48,703 bases of DNA from Ruminococcus sp. (GTDB lineage: Bacteria > Bacillota > Clostridia > Oscillospirales > Ruminococcaceae): contig JAEELF010000068.1 in assembly GCA_016288815.1 (NCBI GenBank), positions 1 through 48,703 of the forward strand, in the 5' to 3' direction. Below are positions 3,121-32,899 of this stretch, one piece after another. Positions within the stretch are counted from its first letter, which is position 1. Each line of letters starts with the position of its first letter. The notes below the pieces were generated by a model, which saw only the letters and a list, made by a program, of their open reading frames with translations, had not been told where the DNA came from and ran no database searches. A program made the translations under genes and the position numbers.

Positions 3121-3153
3121 AAAACGGAGAGTGTTTCATGCACTCTCCGTTTT
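3121..3153. terminator. Bidirectional terminator between convergent genes
   Basis: A perfect 13-bp stem, AAAACGGAGAGTG at 3121-3133 and its complement at 3141-3153, closes a 7-base loop. A/T runs on both sides suit termination in both directions: the recG pair from the left and the ECF operon from the right. Confidence 0.85.
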
Positions 3154-3839
3154 TATACTCCGTATTTCACCCGCAGACGGTCGAGCTTCTCACCGAAGGG
3201 GTCTGCCATGAGCGCGAGGAAGACGACGTTCGACACGACATACGCGGTCGTGTGCGGTATCGCGGCGATTATCGCGGACTTATACAGCTGCGGGTCGAAA
3301 CCGCCGCCGTACCACATGACCGTCCAGATGTCCATGGTCATGGAGTAGAATATCCCCGAAACCACGCCGTATACCAGCAGCAGGACACGGCTGCGGCGGA
3401 GCGGGTCAGCGAGCAGTCCTGCGAACAGTCCGATGAGTCCCCACGCGAGCATCTGGAAGGGCGTCCACGGTCCCTGTCCGAAGTAGAAATTCGAGATCAG
3501 CGCGGTCATCGCTCCCACGAGGAAGCCCGACTCGCCGCCGAGGTATATCGCGGTCATTATCGTCACCGCCGCGACCGGCTTCAGCACGGGAATGAACCTC
3601 CCCACTACGGCGAGCGCGGTCATCACGGACACTATCACGAGCCGGCGGCTGCCGGTCTTTTGGCGTTCAAAGCCTGTCAGGAACAGCACTACAGACAGTC
3701 CCGCCACCGCCAGTGACACGAATGCGTGGCGCTTTTCGCTGAAAACTGCCGCACCGAGCAGTACCACCGCTGGTATCAGCAGGAACGGTATCACGCACCG
3801 GAGCACGTCCCGCGCTGTCTTGCTTCGTATCACGATCAT
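3153..3839 (-). CDS. ECF transporter substrate-binding S component, predicted corrinoid-specific
   Basis: A 228-residue integral membrane protein with about six hydrophobic segments, the size and layout of an S component of an energy-coupling factor transporter. The segment SVMTALAVVGRFIP has the small-residue pattern that S components use to contact EcfT. It is the last gene of the riboswitch operon; its ATG overlaps the stop of the fused ATPase gene (ATGA) and GGAGG precedes it. Known S-component families bind vitamins or metals. The cobalamin riboswitch and the two neighbouring transcobalamin-like proteins make a corrinoid the likely substrate, comparable to CbrT. That substrate is inferred from context, not from binding residues. 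Confidence 0.8.
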   Translation of the reverse strand: MIVIRSKTARDVLRCVIPFLLIPAVVLLGAAVFSEKRHAFVSLAVAGLSVVLFLTGFERQKTGSRRLVIVSVMTALAVVGRFIPVLKPVAAVTIMTAIYLGGESGFLVGAMTALISNFYFGQGPWTPFQMLAWGLIGLFAGLLADPLRRSRVLLLVYGVVSGIFYSMTMDIWTVMWYGGGFDPQLYKSAIIAAIPHTTAYVVSNVVFLALMADPFGEKLDRLRVKYGV

Positions 3840-5476
3840 CGCGCGTCCTCCCTTTCACCGTTCAGGCGGCAGAGCTCCGCGAGCGACGCCACGTCGGGGA
3901 CGTTCTCATAGTACCCGCGGGACATTCTCCCGGCAGCAGTGGTGTAGAAGTTGTTGCCGCCGAAAAATTCGTCCGGAGTCCCCACAGACACCGATGTACC
4001 GAGGAAAAACATCGCGCAGCGGTCGGCGCACTGTGCAGCGAGCTCGACGTCGTGCGTGACCGCGACTATCGTCATGCCGGAGTTCCGCAGCTTCCGCAGG
4101 AGCGAGATAAAGCGCAGCTTTGCGTGTGAATCGAGCCCCTTCGTCGGCTCGTCCATGAGGAGGAGCTTCGGCTTTGCTGCGAGCACCTTCGCCAGTCCGA
4201 CGAGCTGCTGCTCGCCGCCGGAGAGGTCGTATGGGTGCTTGTCGAGGAGTTGGGAGATGTCGAACGGTATATCAGGCAGCTCCGCGCCGTGCTCGGACAG
4301 CTCTTCGCGGACGGTCGGGCGCAGGAACATCGTGCGTACGTCCTGCGGCATGAGCGCGAGGCACTCGCGGTAGAGAGACTGGTTTTTGTACTCGCGCAGG
4401 CGTCTGCCGAAAATGCGTATCGTGCCGGAATACGGGCGGATTATCCCCGAAACTGCGGACAGCGCCGTGGTCTTGCCGGAGCCGTTCCCGCCGAGTATGC
4501 AGAATATCTCGCCTGTCCGGACGGTCAGCGTGAGCCCGCGCAGGATATCGGGGGAGTGCTTGTCGTAGCGGAAGAAGACGTCCTCCAGCTCGAGTGCGGG
4601 AGGTGCGGGAGCGGGTGTTTCTTTGCGCGGCAGGGACTTTATCTTCCTGCGGAAGTGCTGCTCGATGAAGTTTCGTCCCTCGCGGACGGTCAGGGGACAG
4701 TCCTCACCCGTGAAGCCGAGGGAGGTGTACAGCTGGGCAGCCGCCGGCATAGCGCACATGAGCTCGGGACGGCTGCGGAGCTGCGATATGACGCTTCGCG
4801 GCTCGCCGTCGAAGATGAGACGTCCCTCTTCGAGCACCATGAGACGGTCGGAAATGGGGATAAGCTCGCCGAGGCGGTGCTCCGCGATGATGACGGTCAG
4901 CGAGAGCTCGGTGTTGAGCTTTTTCAGCGCGTTTATGAACTCCGCGGCGGCTATCGGGTCGAGCTGCGCGGTGGGCTCGTCGAGGATAAGCAGGTCGGGC
5001 TGCATGGCCATGACCGACGCGAGGTTGAGTATCTGCTTCTGACCGCCGGAGAGCTCCGCGACGTCGCGGTCGTACCAGTCGGATATGCCGAGCCAGCTCG
5101 CGGTCTCGGCGGTGCGCAGGGCGATGGTCTGCTGCGGGAGAGCAAGGTTCTCCAGCCCGAATGCGAGCTCGTGCCAGACCTTGTCGGTGACGATCTGTTG
5201 CTCGGGGTCCTGCATGACGAAGCCGATCCGCGAGGCGGAGTCCCTGTCGCTTAGCCCGGGGAGGGGAGTGCCGGAGAATAACAGCGTGCCGGACTGCTCC
5301 CCGAGCGGGGAGAGCTCGCGCTTCAGCAGACGCAGGAGGGTGGATTTTCCGCTGCCGGTCGCGCCGCAGACTGTCACGAGCTCGCCGCGCCGCACGCTGA
5401 AGCTGACGTCCGACACCGCAGGAGCGTTAGTCTGCGGGTAGGTGAAGCTCAGCTCCTTGACTGCAAGTATTTCCAT
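3836..5476 (-). CDS. ECF transporter ATPase, two ABC domains fused
   Basis: The 546-residue protein carries two complete ABC ATPase domains in one chain, equivalent to EcfA1 plus EcfA2. The first has Walker A GATGSGKST (residues 38-46), signature LSGGQKQ and Walker B LLILDEPTAQLD. The second has GGNGSGKTT, LSGGEQQ and LLLMDEPTKGLD. Both look active. The ATG at 5476 is chosen because GGCGGAGG lies upstream and the protein starts directly with the ABC fold (MEILAVKELSFTY); longer readings run into the ecfT gene. It overlaps ecfT by 28 bases and the S gene by 4. The pair hydrolyses ATP in the cytoplasm to power S-component toppling. Confidence 0.93.
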   Translation of the reverse strand: MEILAVKELSFTYPQTNAPAVSDVSFSVRRGELVTVCGATGSGKSTLLRLLKRELSPLGEQSGTLLFSGTPLPGLSDRDSASRIGFVMQDPEQQIVTDKVWHELAFGLENLALPQQTIALRTAETASWLGISDWYDRDVAELSGGQKQILNLASVMAMQPDLLILDEPTAQLDPIAAAEFINALKKLNTELSLTVIIAEHRLGELIPISDRLMVLEEGRLIFDGEPRSVISQLRSRPELMCAMPAAAQLYTSLGFTGEDCPLTVREGRNFIEQHFRRKIKSLPRKETPAPAPPALELEDVFFRYDKHSPDILRGLTLTVRTGEIFCILGGNGSGKTTALSAVSGIIRPYSGTIRIFGRRLREYKNQSLYRECLALMPQDVRTMFLRPTVREELSEHGAELPDIPFDISQLLDKHPYDLSGGEQQLVGLAKVLAAKPKLLLMDEPTKGLDSHAKLRFISLLRKLRNSGMTIVAVTHDVELAAQCADRCAMFFLGTSVSVGTPDEFFGGNNFYTTAAGRMSRGYYENVPDVASLAELCRLNGEREDAR

Positions 5477-6327
5477 TTTATCGCCTCCGCCGCCTCGAAA
5501 GCCGACGGCAGGAACGCCAGCACGAAGCATGAAATGTGGCACAGCACGGTCAGTGTGCCGGAGCTGTGCAGTGTGAATTCGGGGTAAAAATCTGTGTGCA
5601 GTGCGCCGAGCGCTATGCCGGTGCATATCACTGCTAGCAGCGCAAGGCTGACCGCGATCAGCGCCGCGTCTGCACGTCTTATGCGGTATCTGCGGAAGCT
5701 CGTCCTCCGGCAGACGCCGTAGCCGCGCGCCGCCATGCTGTCCGCAGTGGTTATCCCGCTCTCGAGCGACCAAGTCATCATTATCGAGAAAACGCGCAGC
5801 CCGCCGCGGATACTGTCGATGATATTGTCGTCCTTGTATAGACCGAGCGCACGCTGGGTCTGCTGGGTCTGCCTCCAGCGCCTGCGGAAGAGCCGTACAT
5901 AGCGCAGCGTCATGGAGAGCACCAGCGCGAGCTTCGGCGAGAGCGCCCCGAAAACGTACAGCAGGCGGTCGCTCGTCATTATCTGGGAGAAGGTCATGAA
6001 CCAGTACAGCACAGCGGTTATCACCGTCGCGGAGGTCAGCCCGAATATCAGCGATTCGAGCGTGATCGGATCATCGTTGAACACGAACAGGACTGTCTTG
6101 CCGTTGTGCGTGATGACCGGGTTCACCAGCGCCATTACGACGAACAGCCCCGCGCTCCACAGGTGCGTACGGAGCTTTCCGCCGCGGCTGCGGACGACGT
6201 ACAGCGTTACCGCGCCGAGCAGCGAAATTACAGCGTTCACAGGCTCCATGCAGAACATCGCCGAGCCGGCTGCCGCGAAGAAGTACACTGTCAGTGCTAT
6301 TGGGTCGAAGTCGGAGAAGCTCCGCAT
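5449..6327 (-). CDS. ecfT: ECF transporter transmembrane component EcfT
   Basis: A 292-residue membrane protein of the EcfT/CbiQ family. Hydrophobic N- and C-terminal segments flank a basic cytoplasmic stretch (RYVRLFRRRWRQTQQTQRALG). The diagnostic coupling motif AARGYG follows; it docks on the ABC ATPases. EcfT links the ATPases to the S component. It starts 9 bases after the stop of the transcobalamin-like gene and overlaps the fused ATPase gene, so the three transporter parts are translated together from the riboswitch-controlled transcript. A dedicated T gene next to its own A and S genes marks this as a group I-type ECF system rather than a shared module. Confidence 0.93.
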   Translation of the reverse strand: MRSFSDFDPIALTVYFFAAAGSAMFCMEPVNAVISLLGAVTLYVVRSRGGKLRTHLWSAGLFVVMALVNPVITHNGKTVLFVFNDDPITLESLIFGLTSATVITAVLYWFMTFSQIMTSDRLLYVFGALSPKLALVLSMTLRYVRLFRRRWRQTQQTQRALGLYKDDNIIDSIRGGLRVFSIMMTWSLESGITTADSMAARGYGVCRRTSFRRYRIRRADAALIAVSLALLAVICTGIALGALHTDFYPEFTLHSSGTLTVLCHISCFVLAFLPSAFEAAEAIKWKYLQSRS

Positions 6328-6336
6328 GGTGTCACC

Positions 6337-8163
6337 TCATTTCAGATCATTTCCGATGTTGGTCGAGTACAGCCATTCCACGAAGTCGCCGTCGGAGAGC
6401 TCATACGCTCCCGCGCCGACGGAGGGCGTGTCACTGTTCACACGGTACATCCAGCCCGATAATTCGCCGAAATCGTACTCATAGAGATAGTTTATCCCCG
6501 CGACGTAGACCATGTCCCCGGAGCCTTTCGTGTCGAGCTGGATACTGTACGTCCGGGCAGCCTGCGTGAGGATATCGTATGCGGTCTCGCCGTCGGCGAT
6601 GTCGAACTTGGTGACGTCGAGTATCACGCCGGACTCCGGGATATACCGGTGGTCGGCACGCTCCGCGACGGTGTCGCAGCGAATGGTCATGGTTATGGTG
6701 CCCGAGGCGTTTTCCTTGGCGGCAGGCGGGGTGTAGTAGTCCTCGGCGGTGCGGAAGTCCGTGAGCTGCACGAACGCCACGCACGCTCCAGCCGCTATCG
6801 CAAGGGCGATGAAGTTCTTGGGGTGTCGCTTGCCAATGATGAGCAGGAGCAGCGCCGCGACTCCTGCAGTGCCGATAATTATGAGCGTCACGGGAGTTTT
6901 GTACCCGCCCGATGAGGTCGCTGCTGCCGCCGCAGCCCGGACTGTTGTGACCGCCGATGTCTCCGCAGCCGTTGTGGTCGCTGTAGTTAGAGAGACTATC
7001 TCCGCGGGCTCGGATATGAGCGCCGCGACCGTAGTCACTGACACCGCAGAGGACGTTTCAGCGGGGGCTGTTCCTGTCTGCTGCACGGAGGTCACTGCCG
7101 CGGACTGCGCGGGTGCTGTTCCATCTGCGGGAGTGGTCTGGACGGAGACGGGCTCGGTCTGCTGCGGCTCGGTGACGTCGGGGACCTCTGGCACGGAGGG
7201 TGTTTCCGGGAGCACGCGGCGGTCGAGGACGTAAAACGGCGTCATGCCGTTCTGCTGGCGCATATACGCGATGAGCGAGTAGAACACCTGCGAGGTCGCG
7301 TTGTGGTTGTAGTCGCCGGAGACCGTGTGTGAGAAACTGCCGTCGTCGCGGCGGTAGCGCGCAAGTCCGGACAGCAGGGTATTGTCGCCCTTGATGAAGC
7401 GGGAGTCGGTCATGGGGTCGATGCCGAGAGAGGCGAGCGCCACGATGACCTGTGCGGTGCTCTCGGGGTTGTCAGTGCCGTAGCTGGAGAAGTCTCCGGT
7501 GTCGAGCTGCCGCGAGGAGAGCATATCAAGTGCGCGGTCAACTGCGTCCGCGACTGAGCTGTTCTGCCCGTAATACGGCGCGAGGGACTGCACGACCATT
7601 GCTGTGACGTCGATGTCCCCGACAGTCCCCCAGAGCGCCCAGCCGCCGTCGGAGAACTGCTGCGAGAGGAGGTAGTCCACCGTCTCCTGCGCCGTGACCG
7701 CGCCAGTGTAGCCGTTGCTGAGGATATGCAGACCGTACACCCAGCTCATTATGCCCTGCGCGCCGACCGAATCCGTCAGCGAGCCCGCGATGTAGCTGTC
7801 CGTGGAGCCGCACGCAGCGAGCGCGAGCGCATACTTCTGCCTGGAGGTCGCCGAGGGGACGTTATTGTTCGCAAGGTAGGTCTCGAGCGAGCTCTCGTAG
7901 GAGGAGAAGTCGTACCAGCCGCCGCTCTGGCTAAGCGCGATGATGTAGAACTCCGAGGTCAGCCCGGCGTTGGCGGCGAGGTCGCCGCTGATCCAGTCCT
8001 GCACCGACCCGGAGCCGGTCTCTGCGAGCTTATAGCTGATAATACCGTCGATGAAGCTCTGCGCCTCACCGACGGTATCTGCGTGTGATATGAGTGGCTT
8101 CGCGCCGAGGCACGTCACCGCTGATATTAGGGCTATAAGCGCGGCAATCGGCTTAGTCCTCAT
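6337..8163 (-). CDS. Intrinsic-factor/transcobalamin-like membrane protein (alpha-barrel plus DUF4430 domain)
   Basis: A 608-residue predicted surface protein. Residues 1-28 form a signal peptide. Residues about 30-313 contain repeats of the prenyltransferase/terpenoid-cyclase alpha-barrel type, such as QQFSDGGWALWG and RRDDGSFSHT. A Thr/Ser/Pro-rich linker (318-422) leads to two hydrophobic helices (423-443 and 451-467) separated by the short basic turn GKRHPKN. Residues about 488-600 match DUF4430, the beta domain of transcobalamin and intrinsic factor, with ELSGWMYRVN and DGDFVEWLYS. An alpha6/alpha6 barrel plus this beta domain is the plan of mammalian B12 carriers. Riboswitch and ECF context support corrinoid capture and hand-over. 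Its ATG lies 11 bases inside the upstream gene. Binding itself is unproven. Confidence 0.85.
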   Translation of the reverse strand: MRTKPIAALIALISAVTCLGAKPLISHADTVGEAQSFIDGIISYKLAETGSGSVQDWISGDLAANAGLTSEFYIIALSQSGGWYDFSSYESSLETYLANNNVPSATSRQKYALALAACGSTDSYIAGSLTDSVGAQGIMSWVYGLHILSNGYTGAVTAQETVDYLLSQQFSDGGWALWGTVGDIDVTAMVVQSLAPYYGQNSSVADAVDRALDMLSSRQLDTGDFSSYGTDNPESTAQVIVALASLGIDPMTDSRFIKGDNTLLSGLARYRRDDGSFSHTVSGDYNHNATSQVFYSLIAYMRQQNGMTPFYVLDRRVLPETPSVPEVPDVTEPQQTEPVSVQTTPADGTAPAQSAAVTSVQQTGTAPAETSSAVSVTTVAALISEPAEIVSLTTATTTAAETSAVTTVRAAAAAATSSGGYKTPVTLIIIGTAGVAALLLLIIGKRHPKNFIALAIAAGACVAFVQLTDFRTAEDYYTPPAAKENASGTITMTIRCDTVAERADHRYIPESGVILDVTKFDIADGETAYDILTQAARTYSIQLDTKGSGDMVYVAGINYLYEYDFGELSGWMYRVNSDTPSVGAGAYELSDGDFVEWLYSTNIGNDLK

Positions 8164-9055
8164 TCTTCTTTCTTGCTAAAACGAGAGCAGCGATGCCTGC
8201 GAATGCTGCGATCCCGACTGCGGGGACGCTGTCGCCGGTCTTAGGAGAGGAAGTGCCTGTGGTAGTTGCTGCTGCGGTAGTCGTTGCAGCTGTTGTTGTG
8301 GTAGTTGCAGCGGAGGATGTAGTTGTGGAAGTCTCAGCAGTTGTAGATGTAGAGGTTGTCTCACCTGCGACCTCAGCCTTGAGTGCCGGGGGCACGAGTG
8401 TCATAGAATCAGACTTTGCGCTGATAACGTGGCTTCCGGCTGTGAGCGGGAGGCTGACCTTGCCGTCTGCGTCGGTCTTGTACTCTGTCGCTTCGCCGTC
8501 TACAGTGATGATTGCTCCCTCAACTGCGAGAGTAAGGGGGTTCCAGTTTTCGTCGAAGCCTGCTGCGGAAAGCGTGAGCTCAACTGTATCGCCGTCGTTG
8601 GCTGTGAGTGAGTTCTCGTTGAACCAGCAGTACTTGTCCGACCAGCCGGTGAGGTCTGTGTATACGAAAGCGTTGATGTAGTCGCCGTCCTTGACAGTGT
8701 CAGCGAGGGACATAGCGGAAGCGTTGTTTACATAGTAGCCGTAGCTGCCGCCGTTCTCAGAGCCCCAGAGCTTTGTCATGCCGAGACCGTACTGGCTCAC
8801 CGAGCTGCCGTAGCCGGCTGCGGAGCCGCCCTCAAAGCACTTGTCGTGTGCGATGATAAGTGCGTCGTTGATAGTGAGTGCGCCGTCGGAGTCAGCGTCA
8901 GTCACCTCGACCTCCTCCTGGACTACAGCGAGCTTGCCCTCTGCGTCGGCGATAGTCACATTGACCTTGAGTGCGTCGTCAGCGCTTACCGGAAGAGCTC
9001 CCATTGCTGCGAAAGCGAGAACTGCCGCTGCGGATACAGTGATGATTTTTTTCAT
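8153..9055 (-). CDS. Wall-anchored DUF4430-like surface protein
   Basis: A 300-residue secreted protein. It has a clear signal peptide (MKKIITVSAAAVLAFAAMG, cleavage near ALPVSA-DD). The middle part contains GYYVNNASAMSLADTVKDGD followed by YINAFVY, which resembles the DUF4430/transcobalamin beta domain. An Ig-like stretch (about 140-215) and a long Thr/Ala-rich spacer come next. The C terminus SPKTGDS, a hydrophobic helix and ARKKNED form an LPXTG-like sortase signal with S for L. GAGGT lies 8 bases before the ATG. It overlaps the gene before it by 4 bases and the transcobalamin-like gene by 11. The likely role is to catch or pass on corrinoids at the wall; a purely structural role is also possible. 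Confidence 0.82.
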   Translation of the reverse strand: MKKIITVSAAAVLAFAAMGALPVSADDALKVNVTIADAEGKLAVVQEEVEVTDADSDGALTINDALIIAHDKCFEGGSAAGYGSSVSQYGLGMTKLWGSENGGSYGYYVNNASAMSLADTVKDGDYINAFVYTDLTGWSDKYCWFNENSLTANDGDTVELTLSAAGFDENWNPLTLAVEGAIITVDGEATEYKTDADGKVSLPLTAGSHVISAKSDSMTLVPPALKAEVAGETTSTSTTAETSTTTSSAATTTTTAATTTAAATTTGTSSPKTGDSVPAVGIAAFAGIAALVLARKKNED

Positions 9056-9342
9056 ACTTCTTTACCTCTTTCTTCGGTTTTATTCCGGAATTCTTTCCGC
9101 TTCTGCTTCTGCGCCGCACGCTTTTCAGCGCGCTTGGCGGCGCGATCATCAGATCTCGGCGGCTTGATGCCTGCTGCTTCGAGGGCTCGTCCCCACGGAC
9201 CGAAGAAGGCTTTGATCGCCATTACCTCGCGGCCTGTGAAGTCGGCACGCCTGGGGTAGCGGGCTTCACCTGCACTTTTCAGCTCCTCCTGCTTTTTTAC
9301 GAGCAGAGCTGAACAATCCTCTGCTGTCAGCTTTTTCTCCAT
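9052..9342 (-). CDS. Small protein with homing-endonuclease-associated-repeat-like motif
   Basis: A basic protein of about 96 residues and the first gene of the riboswitch operon. The motif YPRRADF ... AIKAFFGPWGRALEAAGIK matches the pattern of homing endonuclease associated repeats (HEAR), short helical DNA-contacting modules. The C-terminal third is Lys/Arg-rich and probably disordered. GGAGGT stands upstream; with normal spacing it serves the ATG at 9342 or 9345 better than the GTG at 9354. The stop overlaps the ATG of the wall-anchored gene. No catalytic nuclease residues are visible. It may be a small regulator, but its role in a transport operon is unknown. Confidence 0.75.
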   Translation of the reverse strand: MEKKLTAEDCSALLVKKQEELKSAGEARYPRRADFTGREVMAIKAFFGPWGRALEAAGIKPPRSDDRAAKRAEKRAAQKQKRKEFRNKTEERGKEV

Positions 9343-9442
9343 CATGACCTCCACGATACTGATGTACCCATTAAATCTTGAAGTTCAGACGCAGACAAAA
9401 ATGTAATTTGTCAAGGCGCAAAAGTGAAGGAATAATTTCGTA

Positions 9443-9458
9443 TTGCAAACTTTTGCAA
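9443..9458. promoter_or_regulatory. Palindrome in the operon leader, possible operator
   Basis: TTGCAAA and its exact complement TTTGCAA are separated by CT. The site lies between the riboswitch terminator and the first gene. The stretch 9343-9516 is otherwise non-coding and also holds a direct repeat TTTGTCAAG at about 9405 and 9476. A protein-binding site or small RNA hairpin is possible. Confidence 0.4.
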
Positions 9459-9516
9459 CGCAGATAAATATCATTTTTGTCAAGTATCAGATCCAAGATA
9501 TAGTTGGTACATCAAT

Positions 9517-9550
9517 AAAAAACGCCTCTCCGGGTACGACCGGAAAGGCG
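9517..9550 (-). terminator. Riboswitch-controlled intrinsic terminator
   Basis: On the minus strand CGCCTTTCCGG (9550-9540) pairs with CCGGAGAGGCG (9533-9523) with one G-U pair and a 6-base loop, followed directly by six T (9522-9517). It sits downstream of the aptamer and 175 bases before the first gene, so it can stop transcription of the whole operon. Confidence 0.88.
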
Positions 9551-9596
9551 CAGCTATCCCATAGGCATGGACTGTCCATGTGTCGCTGCGTCCTCC
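9542..9596 (-). promoter_or_regulatory. Predicted antiterminator of the expression platform
   Basis: On the minus strand GGAGGACGCAGC (9596-9585) can pair with GCTGCGCCTTTCC (9554-9542): six Watson-Crick pairs, one mismatch, then five further pairs including two G-U. The 3' arm takes most of the 5' arm of the terminator at 9517-9550, so the two folds exclude each other. The hairpin CATGGA/TCCATG (9566-9580) would lie in the loop. Confidence 0.6.
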
Positions 9597-9599
9597 ATA

Positions 9600-9720
9600 T
9601 CCGAGGGCACTCGGCTCTTCGCTGTATCCGGTGAGTATCCCGACTTACTGGCTCACGCCAGATCACGGTAGTGATGGCTGCGACGGCTTTGCACCGAACT
9701 TCCCTCACTCGGACTGCGGT
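9600..9720 (-). promoter_or_regulatory. Cobalamin-type riboswitch aptamer
   Basis: Reading the minus strand, the order of conserved boxes follows the cobalamin riboswitch: GAGGGAAGTTCGGTGCAAAG, then CCGTCGCAGCC, then CACTACCGTGA (consensus near CGCTACTGTGA). A hairpin CTGGC/GCCAG follows, then the B12-box-like AAGTCGGGATACTCACC. The box departs from consensus mainly in the last bases, where it still pairs with GTGAG upstream of the first box, so helix P3 is kept. A further hairpin CCGAG/CTCGG (9614-9601) follows. Binding of adenosyl- or other cobalamin should switch the downstream terminator. Type assignment rests on eye-read motifs. Confidence 0.85.
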
Positions 9721-9737
9721 AATTATTCCTGTTGTAC

Positions 9738-9766
9738 ATTATATCACGTTGTTTGGGGCGTGTCAA
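9738..9766 (-). promoter_or_regulatory. Consensus sigma-A promoter of the riboswitch operon
   Basis: TTGACA (9766-9761) and TATAAT (9743-9738) on the minus strand are separated by exactly 17 bases. Transcription would start near 9731, just before the aptamer. The -35 box overlaps the stop codon of the metallophosphoesterase gene. Confidence 0.9.
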
Positions 9767-19088: not shown

Positions 19089-19120
19089 ATATGTATATCT
19101 ATAAAAAAGGAAGCGTATCT

Positions 19121-20275
19121 ATGACAAAGATAACCATATTCTCCGGCTTTTTGGGCGCCGGAAAGACCACACTCATCAAGAAGCTCATCGCTGAGGGCTA
19201 CAAGGGCGAGAAACTCGTCCTCATCGAGAACGAGTTCGGCGATATCGGCATAGACGGAGGATTTTTACAGGACGCAGGCGTCGAGATAACTGAGATGAAC
19301 TCCGGCTGTATCTGCTGCAGTCTCGTCGGAGACTTCGGCAAGGCGCTGGAAAAGGTCCTCGCAGACTTTGCTCCCGACCGTATCCTCATCGAGCCCTCCG
19401 GTGTCGGAAAGCTCAGCGACGTTATCCGCGCTGTCCAGAATATTGACGCCCACGACGTGCAGCTCGACGGCTTCACGACTGTAGTTGACGCAAAGAAGTG
19501 CAAGATGTACCACAAGAACTTCGGCGAGTTCTTCAATAATCAGATAACCTATGCAAGCTGCATAATCCTCAGCCATACACAGGGTCTCTCGGAGGAGAAG
19601 ATAAGCGAGGTCATCGCGCTCCTGCGCGAGCTTAATCCCATTGCCCCTGTAGTTACGACCGAGTGGGAGCAGCTTACCGGTCAGCAGCTCGTTGAAGCTA
19701 TGACCCAGAAGAATACTCTCGATGACGAGCTGAAGTCACTCCTCGAGGAGGCAGAGCACGAGCATCATCACCACCACCATGACGATGATGACGAAGACGA
19801 GCATGAGCATCATCATCACCACGATCACGACGAAGACGAGCATGAACATCACCATCACGATGATGAGCATGAACACCACCACCACGATCATGACGATGAC
19901 GAGCACGAACACCACCATGACCACGGTCCGGATTGCACCTGCGGCTGTCACGACCATGACCACGACCACGAACATCATCACCACCACCATGCGGACGAGG
20001 TGTTCACGAGCTGGGGCGTCGAGACTCCCGCAAGCTACTCCGCGGACGAGATCACTGCTGCTCTGAACGCTCTTTCCGACGATGCTAAGTTCGGCACAGT
20101 GCTCCGTGCAAAGGGCATAGTTCCCGGCAAGGACGGTCAGTGGATACACTTCGACTACGTTCCCGGCGTACCGGATGTCCGCACAGGCAGTGCTTCTACT
20201 ATCGGAAGACTCTGCGTTATAGGCTCGAAGATAAATGAAGCTGCGCTCGCTGAGCTCTTCCGCACAGCTGAATAA
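19121..20275 (+). CDS. COG0523-family GTPase with a large His/Asp-rich metal-binding region
   Basis: A 384-residue G3E-class GTPase (CobW/ZNG1/YjiA type). It has Walker A GFLGAGKTT (residues 9-17), the metal-binding CxCC motif in SGCICCSL (62-66), and a switch region ending LIEPSGVGK. Residues about 212-290 consist almost only of His, Asp and Glu, interrupted by DCTCGCH, and should bind many transition-metal ions. The C-terminal CobW domain follows. These proteins deliver Zn, Co or Ni to target enzymes or buffer metal. The ATG at 19121 is chosen because AAAGGAAG precedes it and the P-loop then falls near the N terminus. The next gene, 13 bases on, is a second protein of the same superfamily. 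The metal is unknown. Confidence 0.9.
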   Translation: MTKITIFSGFLGAGKTTLIKKLIAEGYKGEKLVLIENEFGDIGIDGGFLQDAGVEITEMNSGCICCSLVGDFGKALEKVLADFAPDRILIEPSGVGKLSDVIRAVQNIDAHDVQLDGFTTVVDAKKCKMYHKNFGEFFNNQITYASCIILSHTQGLSEEKISEVIALLRELNPIAPVVTTEWEQLTGQQLVEAMTQKNTLDDELKSLLEEAEHEHHHHHHDDDDEDEHEHHHHHDHDEDEHEHHHHDDEHEHHHHDHDDDEHEHHHDHGPDCTCGCHDHDHDHEHHHHHHADEVFTSWGVETPASYSADEITAALNALSDDAKFGTVLRAKGIVPGKDGQWIHFDYVPGVPDVRTGSASTIGRLCVIGSKINEAALAELFRTAE

Positions 20276-20288
20276 GGGGGTAGGGGAT

Positions 20289-21242
20289 ATGCCCGCAAAT
20301 AAAGAAGTTCCGGTATATCTGTTCCTTGGCTTCCTCGAAGCCGGAAAGACCAAGTTCATACAGGAGACCCTCATGGACAAACGCTTCAACAGCGGCGAGC
20401 GCACGCTCGTGCTGGTCTGCGAGGAGGGCATAGAGGAGTATGACCCGTCCGGTTATCCCTCGAAGAACGTGGAGTTCCGCACTATCGAGGACATGAGTGA
20501 TCTGAACGAGGCGAATCTGCAAAGGCTCGTTGATGAGACCCGCGCGGAGAGAGTCGTCGTGGAATACAACGGAATGTGGCTGATAAAGGAGCTCTTCAAC
20601 GCAATGCCGGACGGCTGGGCGATATATCAGGTCATGTTCTTCGCGGACGCTTCGACCTTCCTCAACTACAACGCGAATATGCGCAGCCTTGTCGTTGATA
20701 AGCTGAATATGTGCGAACTGGTCGTGTTCAACCGTGCAGACCGCGGAATGGATGCAATGGAGTACCACAAGATAGTACGCGGCGTCAGCAGACGTGCGGA
20801 GATAGCGTATGAGTACAAGGACGGCGGTATCGCCTACGACGACATCGAGGATCCGCTCCCGTTCGACATCGAGAAGGACGAGATAGTCATCGAGGACCGT
20901 GATTTCGCGCTGTTCTACCGTGACATCATGGAAGAACCGGCCAAATACGACGGCAAGACGGTGACCTTCAAGGGGCTTGCTGCTCGCAACCCGAAGTTCC
21001 CGCCGGAGGTCTTCGCTATGGGACGCAACGTCATGACTTGCTGCGTGGAGGACATACAGTTCTGTTGGTTTGTGACGGAGTCTGATGATCCGTCGAAGCG
21101 ACGTGAGCGTGGCTGGAGCATCATGAAGGCGAAGATAAGCGTTCAGAAGCATAAGTTCTACCGCGGTAAGGGTCCTGTCCTGCACGTGATAGAGATAACG
21201 GATTCCGCACCCCCGGAGAAGGAAGTCGCGACGTTTTATTGA
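20289..21242 (+). CDS. COG0523-like GTPase fused to a DUF1980-like domain
   Basis: A 317-residue protein. The N-terminal half is P-loop and G3E-like, with VYLFLGFLEAGKTKFI near residue 10, but the CxCC metal motif of COG0523 is missing. The C-terminal ~90 residues (GKTVTFKGLAARNPKF, then FAMGRNVMTCCVEDIQFCW) resemble the C-terminal DUF1980 domain of TIGR03943 proteins, which are normally partners of a permease and contain a Cys pair. I start at 20289; the longer reading overlaps the previous gene. It is co-transcribed with the His-rich GTPase and ends at a strong terminator. A shared metal-handling function is inferred from the pairing. No permease partner lies nearby. Confidence 0.82.
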   Translation: MPANKEVPVYLFLGFLEAGKTKFIQETLMDKRFNSGERTLVLVCEEGIEEYDPSGYPSKNVEFRTIEDMSDLNEANLQRLVDETRAERVVVEYNGMWLIKELFNAMPDGWAIYQVMFFADASTFLNYNANMRSLVVDKLNMCELVVFNRADRGMDAMEYHKIVRGVSRRAEIAYEYKDGGIAYDDIEDPLPFDIEKDEIVIEDRDFALFYRDIMEEPAKYDGKTVTFKGLAARNPKFPPEVFAMGRNVMTCCVEDIQFCWFVTESDDPSKRRERGWSIMKAKISVQKHKFYRGKGPVLHVIEITDSAPPEKEVATFY

Positions 21243-31441: not shown

Positions 31442-32899
31442 CTATTTCAGCAGGAATTTCCAGATCTTGCTGAACGCCTTCAGACTGCGCCGCATATCAG
31501 ACGGGTCTTTTATCCCCATTGCAATGCGGTGCATGATATATTTCGGACGCATATAGTATTTCTTTCTTGCCTCGTCGCAGAAACGAACCAGTTCCTCACC
31601 GGTTATTTCAGGCAGTTCGAGCAGACAGTTTATCGTGCCGTCCTCCTTGACGTAGTCGGTGTATCCGCCTCGGATATAACCGTTCTCCTTTGCCCAGAAA
31701 TAAGCCTCTGTGCCCGGGAAAGGCAGCAGCGGATAGAACTGTGCAGTGTCGGTATCGAGCTCCAGTGCGAGACGAAGGGTCTCCTTCATGGTCTCCCTGG
31801 TCTCGCCCTTGTTGCCGACCATATAGCAGGCGTGGATCTGAAGTCCGGCTTCCTTTGCATTCTCGACGTATCTGTGTACCTGTTCAATCGTGGTTCCCTT
31901 ACGGATATTGTTGAGGATCTCCTGGCTTCCGCTCTCTATACCGGGGATAATGAGGTGACAGCCGGCTTTTTTCATTGCCTTCATCGTTTCAAGGTCGAGA
32001 TTGACCCTTGCGTTGCAGAGCCAGCGGAAACGCTTATGCAGCCCCTTTTCTGTCATGAGTCTGCATATCTCCAGCACCCTGTCGCGCTTCATAGTAAAGG
32101 TGTCGTCCTCGAATACGATCTCCTTAACGTCGGGGAACGTGCGTGCGATGTATTCAAGCTCAGCGACGACGTTCTCAGGACTTCTCATGCGGTACTGGTG
32201 TCCGTGCATGGTCTGAGGGTATACGCAGAAATTGCAGCGTGCCATGCAGCCGCGTCCGGTGAACATCTGTATCTCAGGGTACCTGCCCGCCGCGAAAAAG
32301 TAGTCCTTGTAGTTGAGGTGCCTGTGGACGAACTCAGACAGGAACGGTATCTCATCGAGCTCGGTTATGTACGGCATATCAGGATTTGAGGCGATACTGC
32401 CGTTTTTCCGATAAGTCAGTCCCTGGACGGAGAACGGATCTCCTCCGTCTCTCAGTGCGCGTGCGACGCCGCGGACGATATAGTCGTACTCATGGCGTGC
32501 TACTGCGTCTATGAGCTTGCTGTTATTGAGAGTCTCGTCAGGGAGAGCGGACGGGTGTGTCCCGACGAGCATGACGAATGCGTCGGGGTACATCTTTTTC
32601 AGCCGGTCCGCACAGACGGTATCGTTGACTATCGAGGGCGTGCTGGTGTTCACTACGAACAGCTTCGTGCCGCAGGCGTGCCCGGCGATATAGCTGTACT
32701 GCTGTTTATGGGTCATAGGATAAGCCGGAGCGTCAAGGAACTCGACCTCGAAGCCGTCCTTCTCGCAGACAGCTGCCGCATAGATCAGCCAGAGCGGATA
32801 ATACAGAGTTCCGCTGCGGGTGACTGTGGGGCTGCGGTTCTCACGTGAAAATTTACCGTATTTTGCTTTGAACGAAGGATTGAGGAAAAAAACTTTCAT
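31442..32899 (-). CDS. B12-binding-domain radical SAM enzyme
   Basis: A 485-residue protein. The N-terminal ~170 residues have the Rossmann-like layout of a cobalamin-binding domain (KVFFLNPSF, GFEVEFLDAPAY, FVMLVGTHPSALP), without the DxHxxG motif. The radical SAM core follows, with the cluster cysteines at 218, 222 and 225 (GCMARCNFC), the GGE-like PGIESGSQEI, and a C-terminal extension. Such enzymes carry out methyl transfer or rearrangement on unactivated carbons. It lies inside the glycosyltransferase operon, so the substrate is probably a sugar or lipid intermediate of the surface polysaccharide. This is an inference. The ribosome site is weak (AGAGAG). Confidence 0.87.
   Translation of the reverse strand: MKVFFLNPSFKAKYGKFSRENRSPTVTRSGTLYYPLWLIYAAAVCEKDGFEVEFLDAPAYPMTHKQQYSYIAGHACGTKLFVVNTSTPSIVNDTVCADRLKKMYPDAFVMLVGTHPSALPDETLNNSKLIDAVARHEYDYIVRGVARALRDGGDPFSVQGLTYRKNGSIASNPDMPYITELDEIPFLSEFVHRHLNYKDYFFAAGRYPEIQMFTGRGCMARCNFCVYPQTMHGHQYRMRSPENVVAELEYIARTFPDVKEIVFEDDTFTMKRDRVLEICRLMTEKGLHKRFRWLCNARVNLDLETMKAMKKAGCHLIIPGIESGSQEILNNIRKGTTIEQVHRYVENAKEAGLQIHACYMVGNKGETRETMKETLRLALELDTDTAQFYPLLPFPGTEAYFWAKENGYIRGGYTDYVKEDGTINCLLELPEITGEELVRFCDEARKKYYMRPKYIMHRIAMGIKDPSDMRRSLKAFSKIWKFLLK

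Follow-up and report, generated by a model that had tools for sequence, protein, structure and literature searches.

A cobalamin-riboswitch operon of Ruminococcus predicted to capture corrinoids through an intrinsic-factor-like surface protein and an ECF transporter

The B12 uptake systems of numerous gut genomes are an open problem (PMC6593275), and a locus in a Ruminococcus sp. genome raises the question of what a transporter operon behind a cobalamin-type riboswitch does with two exported proteins that resemble animal B12 carriers in predicted fold. The stretch analyzed, referred to here as the window, is contig JAEELF010000068.1 of assembly GCA_016288815.1 (positions 1 to 48,703, forward strand), and the operon lies on its minus strand between 9766 and 3153. 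It encodes a wall-anchored protein, a membrane-tethered protein with an alpha/alpha toroid (the toroid protein) and an energy-coupling factor (ECF) transporter with T, fused A-A and S components. At a probability of about 0.82, we read the operon as a riboswitch-repressed system for the uptake of a corrinoid (vitamin B12-type) that is captured by the surface proteins. Taken by its parts, transport of a corrinoid by the operon is very likely, binding of a corrinoid by the toroid protein is probable, and direct hand-over from the toroid protein to the S component is somewhat favored.

The toroid protein is an intrinsic-factor-like protein of 608 amino acids encoded at 6337..8163 (minus strand, as are all operon features below). 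Its alpha/alpha toroid (residues 27-304, 7252..8085) was modeled with a predicted local distance difference test (pLDDT) score mostly >90 and is followed by a Ser/Thr/Pro/Ala-rich linker (residues 305-421, 6901..7251) with low pLDDT at residues 323-326 and 328-418, which is weakly conserved, variable in length and shorter in some relatives. Beyond the linker come a membrane helix hairpin with a short basic loop (residues 422-467, 6763..6900; helices at 422-443 and 448-467 in the model) and a DUF4430, transcobalamin C-terminal-like beta-grasp domain (residues 488-602, 6358..6702). A prior sequence-only reading had described a membrane protein with an alpha-barrel and a DUF4430 domain; both domains were found, and to that description can be added that two membrane helices lie between them. 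Exactly two hydrophobic segments past residue 280 were present in 40/40 aligned relatives of the toroid protein. The beta-grasp domain matched PF14478 at 51.2 bits against a cut-off of 23.8, and the same family was matched by all 40 aligned relatives at E<=10 (best 8.8e-19).

In a Foldseek search of the predicted model against the PDB, transcobalamin occupied ranks 1-7 and intrinsic factor rank 8, each aligned over both the toroid and the beta domain, and haptocorrin appeared at rank 20. The carrier rows reached E-values down to 1.1e-6 at 9-12% identity. The proposed likeness of the barrel plus beta domain to B12 carriers is thus borne out by these eight best PDB rows, at the level of predicted fold.

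A second exported protein, encoded directly upstream at 8153..9055, carries a signal peptide, a beta-grasp domain, an immunoglobulin-like domain, a Thr-rich stalk and a sorting signal that reads SPKTGD, with the LPXTG sorting model at 15.3 bits, just below its cut-off of 15.9. For its first domain (residues 28-139, 8639..8974), predicted to be transcobalamin-beta-like, nine of the top ten VIA rows were transcobalamin, the tenth being 3u7z from Ruminococcus gnavus, and a transcobalamin-type beta-grasp fold is therefore present in the model. No sequence-level counterpart of this result was obtained: PF14478 gave no match to the window protein at E<=1, in 33 relatives searched at E<=0.1 it did not rank among the top 25 of 43 families by frequency, a profile comparison failed to link the protein to DUF4430, and a PDB sequence search with the family found nothing. 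The description of this gene product as a wall-anchored DUF4430-like protein consequently stands for the anchor signal, does not stand for DUF4430 by sequence, and stands for the beta domain by predicted fold only.

The claim of a complete ECF module also stood, as domain scans recovered all three parts. The T component (5449..6327) belongs to the CbiQ family (PF02361 at 25.8 bits, just over the cut-off of 25), the fused double ATPase, A-A (3836..5476), contains two PF00005 stretches and matched TIGR04520 at 326.4 bits (cut-off 315), and the CbrT-like S component of 228 amino acids (3153..3839) matched PF12822 at 36.1 bits (cut-off 30.7), three ECF S-type families exceeding their cut-offs. The likening of this S component to CbrT was upheld by searches against solved structures, in which CbrT (6fnp_A) was its best relative both for the single sequence (E 1.8e-7, next match E 2.2) and for a profile of 26 sequences (E 4.1e-12, next match E 0.033). 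The CbrT match spans residues 63-226 of 228.

The six genes are packed as had been proposed, with junctions between open reading frames in operon order of overlap 4, overlap 11, gap 9, overlap 28 and overlap 4 nt, and the promoter and leader lie upstream within the 9766-3153 span. The promoter, TTGACA-17-TATAAT with a TG ahead of the -10 element (9738..9766), is of sigma-70 type and agrees with the consensus at 12/12 positions; three promoter-like sites were found in 7.7 kb, with 1.6 expected, and this is the sole perfect one. The leader that follows contains a cobalamin-type riboswitch aptamer (9597..9732) and an expression platform consisting of a terminator-like hairpin with a T run (9522..9551; 12 pairs, 8 of them G-C). 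Folding of the leader from 9732 to 9516 gave a z of -2.35, with 5/200 shuffles equally stable.

At Rfam gathering scores, zero families matched anywhere in the 48.7-kb window. Under relaxed Rfam settings the adenosylcobalamin family RF01482 matched the leader at 30.6 bits with a local E of 0.002, where gathering requires 50 bits, and was the sole match at E<=1 across the whole genome (E 0.00103); RF00174 was not found in the genome at E<=0.001. Dismissing the riboswitch on gathering scores alone was overturned by a separate covariance model built from 16 upstream sequences of related loci with the window excluded, which matched the window at 9613-9720 (52.3 bits, E 7.8e-14) and gave no second match there up to E 10; its seed positions had been chosen with Rfam matches and with motifs partly seen in the window, so that this test was not fully blind. 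When 32 sequences were aligned by fitting to the model, a procedure that itself favors the structure, 96.5% of the cells paired and 11/18 pairs showed two-sided changes; shuffles averaged 5.7 such pairs (0/500 reached 11), and slid versions had between 3 and 6. As the same model matches both, the window switch shares its core and covarying stems with relatives' switches that do reach gathering. Together with the hairpin and T run, the match to the window-free model confirms the cobalamin-type riboswitch with terminator that had been read from the letters.

To what extent this gene set recurs behind B12 riboswitches was determined in 80 related loci (1.17 Mb, both strands). The 16-relative model gave 60 matches at E<=1, never more than one in a locus and always in sense orientation upstream of the operon; 16 of them are seeds and 44 are not. 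The weakest of these (E up to 0.96, in L074) overlap RF00174 positions where the two were compared (L030, L054, L055, L058, L074 and L079). The switch lay a median 135 nt from the wall-protein gene, at distances between 27 and 1243 nt, and was <=250 nt away in 49/60. Four further switch loci came from Rfam (L080, L059, L070 and L075), bringing the B12-type switch to 64/80 loci, or 64/76 of those with at least 250 nt upstream, the upstream stretch being too short for this count in L024, L031, L050 and L051. Neither Rfam nor our own model found a switch in 12 loci (L014, L028, L032, L034, L035, L036, L038, L040, L043, L044, L049 and L071), and seven of these (L028, L032, L034, L038, L043, L044 and L049) also lack the wall-protein gene. 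That gene is present in 71/80 loci, and among the 69 with enough upstream sequence (L031 and L050 being too short) 64 have the switch. When 30 loci were scanned against the full set of Rfam families at gathering, no other riboswitch family was found ahead of the operon in sense orientation. The recurrence anticipated by the sequence-only reading is therefore observed in 64/76 loci. An earlier regular-expression motif search (core in 45/76 loci) served as a guide only and was superseded by the covariance-model search.

The relatives' switches reach gathering as RF00174 or RF01689, which indicates that several cobalamin subclasses serve the same operon. RF01689 was detected in 21/40 genomes at E<=0.05 and in 15/40 over its cut-off, and 14 of these 15 over-cut-off matches sit at this operon by coordinates; RF00174 was detected at E<=0.05 in 27/35 and 26/29 genomes, at this operon or elsewhere. 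Genome-wide Rfam matches were placed on loci by coordinates alone, where chance coincidence is possible; nine loci placed in this way were confirmed on their own sequence, and an 86.6-bit row placed in L003 was dropped, as it is absent from the L003 sequence itself. L003 also has a flavin mononucleotide riboswitch (6683-6799, minus strand, 116.2 bits) that precedes the operon but lies on the other strand. By coordinates, 19 strong RF00174 rows (>=85 bits) in the relatives' genomes fall outside the fetched operon stretches.

The order of the genes bears on how the surface proteins and the transporter are related. The S gene was detected by tblastn in 77/80 loci. Most of the 80 share the arrangement wall protein, toroid protein, T, A-A and S, which is interrupted by insertions in a few (e.g., L059 and L080). 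In five loci (L032, L034, L038, L043 and L049) the toroid gene directly adjoins the S gene, with T, A-A and the wall protein absent from the fetched stretch; these five are also without a recognized riboswitch, and L038 has a dockerin protein among its divergent genes. This arrangement is pertinent to the strongest of the alternatives, in which the surface proteins hoard corrinoid or deny it to competitors and free corrinoid enters through the ECF transporter alone. Such independence has a precedent, as ECF-CbrT of Lactobacillus delbrueckii moves cobalamin in liposomes without partners of this kind (PMC5997447). However, both the conserved five-gene order and the adjacency of the toroid and S genes where T and A-A are missing speak against it, and we consider it unlikely, at something like one chance in four. 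The same adjacency is the ground on which a partnership between the toroid protein and the S component is proposed.

Under the corrinoid-capture reading, low intracellular corrinoid would let transcription pass the terminator, and both surface proteins would then be exported, the one with the beta domain to be anchored in the wall and the toroid protein to stay tethered to the membrane. The toroid, on its leash of ~100 residues, and the membrane-near DUF4430 domain would close over a corrinoid in the manner of the two halves of transcobalamin, and the corrinoid would be released to the CbrT-like S component just beneath, with the T and A-A subunits driving ATP-dependent import. Once inside, the corrinoid would mainly serve MetH. 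In this scheme we infer the ligand binding, the closure of the halves, the hand-over and the order of events.

The gene content of the genome (2.33 Mb; at 95.21% completeness, absences are provisional) is informative on what such an import would supply. A MetH-like protein is encoded by an 803-residue open frame, of which a 622-residue piece matched part of the TIGR02082 profile at 407.7 bits, below the family cut-off of 1010.85. At E<=0.001, the genome yielded no MetE family PF01717, no CbiD, no NrdJ and neither PduO-type nor CobA-type adenosyltransferase, and for BtuC-type FecCD only a sub-cut-off piece was found (23.7 vs 26.5 bits). Within the window, a radical S-adenosylmethionine protein with a B12-binding domain (31442-32899, minus strand), situated among glycosyltransferase-like genes, is likely a second corrinoid user. 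In Bacillus subtilis, once btuR is removed, the btuF switch no longer responds to methyl-, hydroxo- or cyanocobalamin (PMC9600662); from this result, and from the lack of a detected adenosyltransferase, the switch of the present genome may by analogy read another corrinoid form.

A second alternative keeps the B12 control and changes the cargo, such that the operon would import a ligand that is not a complete corrinoid, for instance cobalt, a lower-ligand base, cobinamide or heme. B12 riboswitches do also precede transporters assigned to cobalt (PMC2667541), and ECF-CbrT imports cobinamide as well as cobalamin (PMC5997447). In addition, an ECF heme transporter has reportedly been described. 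Against this, the S component is closest to CbrT with no CbiM family among its six Pfam rows, the two exported proteins have transcobalamin-type predicted folds, and cobalt for de novo synthesis is unlikely given that no CbiD was found. On balance we regard a different principal cargo as improbable, and as less probable than the hoarding scenario; cobinamide may be a co-substrate of the corrinoid system.

The toroid, finally, is not recognizable as a B12 carrier by sequence. The profile search of the product of 6337-8163 reached DUF4430, as given above, and no carrier family: a sequence profile of 40 relatives matched no carriers in the PDB at E<=1, matching cyclases and a few unrelated chains instead, and, as far as the filters allow, the eukaryotic cobalamin-binding family is absent from the 8 Pfam rows of the window protein at E<=10. 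It is nevertheless very improbable that a terpene-cyclase-like surface enzyme, or a glycan-related protein active on sugars, is riding here in a B12 transport operon, since the toroid protein's nearness in sequence to squalene-hopene cyclase families, its resemblance to terpene cyclases in predicted fold and toroid fold scores that tie with cyclases and come close to sugar epimerases are set against carrier matches covering both domains and against the recurrence of the toroid plus DUF4430 protein with a CbrT-like S gene (in 77/80 loci) and the riboswitch. To our knowledge, the outer cell face is not where terpene cyclases would be expected, and identification of the protein as one was rejected on genomic context and the two-domain fold match.

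Extending the corrinoid-capture reading, a more specific picture can be offered tentatively, at somewhat less than even odds: the toroid protein would be a split, membrane-tethered relative of intrinsic factor that captures a corrinoid and releases it to the CbrT-type S component within one complex, its toroid swinging on the leash to close over a beta domain that the helix hairpin holds just above the membrane. Such a protein would represent surface B12 capture in a Gram-positive form and a surviving version of the ancestor that was proposed in 2007 for the B12 carriers of animals (see below), and the short switch of its operon would read a non-adenosylated corrinoid. The last element is suggested by MetH being the sole methionine route seen and by no adenosyltransferase having been found.

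The remaining features of the operon and window are peripheral to this account. The first gene (9052..9342) encodes a small protein of 96 amino acids from its ATG that resembles homing-endonuclease-associated repeats (PF18780, E 2.3e-4; 21.9 bits, below the cut-off of 26); the ATG at 9342 is likely its start, rather than the GTG at 9354, because a ribosome-binding-site-like GGAGG lies ahead of it. This small basic protein comes from a broad family, of which 440 members, the window protein among them, were found at E<=0.001, and by tblastn its gene lies between riboswitch and operon in 6/80 loci (L053, L055, L058, L060, L072 and L073), so that it is an inconstant member of the operon. In the interval from the terminator to this gene are two 27-nt direct repeats (9389-9415 and 9458-9484), 78% identical and 69 nt apart, both carrying TTGACA on the minus strand, and the pair is a possible operator or second promoter region. 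Elsewhere in the window, a P-loop protein (19091-20275, plus strand) has a long His/Asp/Glu-rich repeat stretch and is CobW/G3E metal chaperone-like by eye, and a second P-loop-like protein is next to it (20235-21242).

The core idea, that proteins of this kind scavenge B12, is not new. Burroughs et al. in 2007 proposed that Gram-positive surface proteins combining a toroid with a beta-grasp domain scavenge B12, and described them as encoded with CbiO/CbiQ and often with a second such extracellular paralogue (PMC1796856). The corrinoid-capture interpretation given to this DNA is accordingly supported by the carrier folds, the B12 switches and the kinship to CbrT, and its originality is not. 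Their transcobalamin-like SLBB (DUF4430) proteins have a signal peptide and a toroid fused to a beta-grasp in a CbiO/CbiQ-like operon, as in the window. New relative to the passages of that paper drawn on here are the riboswitch, a word absent from its main text, the CbrT-like S component and the membrane hairpin between the domains. The wall protein, unlike the SLBB clade (PF14478), has no detectable DUF4430 sequence match. In the open-licence literature we found no experiments on a bacterial transcobalamin-like surface protein, which is weak evidence of absence. The locus joins a riboswitch, a CbrT-type S component and B12-carrier folds in one operon, in a pattern that recurs in many Ruminococcus-type relatives, and through it the 2007 proposal, along with the idea that animals acquired their B12 carriers from Gram-positive bacteria, can be put directly to the test. 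A further suggestion is that gut Firmicutes, Bacteroides and the carriers of the host may compete for B12.

Each part of the system has a known relative from which it departs. The window switch has the core and position of known cobalamin riboswitches (RF00174, RF01482 and RF01689) and yet scores under the gathering of each family. The transporter resembles ECF-CbrT of L. delbrueckii (6fnp; PMC5997447) in its homologous S component and in having ATPase and T components; in contrast to that system, a dedicated T and a fused A-A are encoded within the operon, and the S component has 228 amino acids compared with 182 in the CbrT chain. BtuG and BtuB of gut Bacteroides capture B12 at the surface before transport, as proposed here, with BtuG being a beta-propeller lipoprotein at an outer-membrane receptor (PMC6977713), and no kinship with the window proteins is implied. 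Closest in predicted fold are mammalian transcobalamin, intrinsic factor and haptocorrin, which have the same order of toroid and then beta-grasp. Whereas those carriers are secreted, the Ruminococcus protein is tethered to the membrane, and its two halves lie ~180 residues apart with two membrane helices between them.

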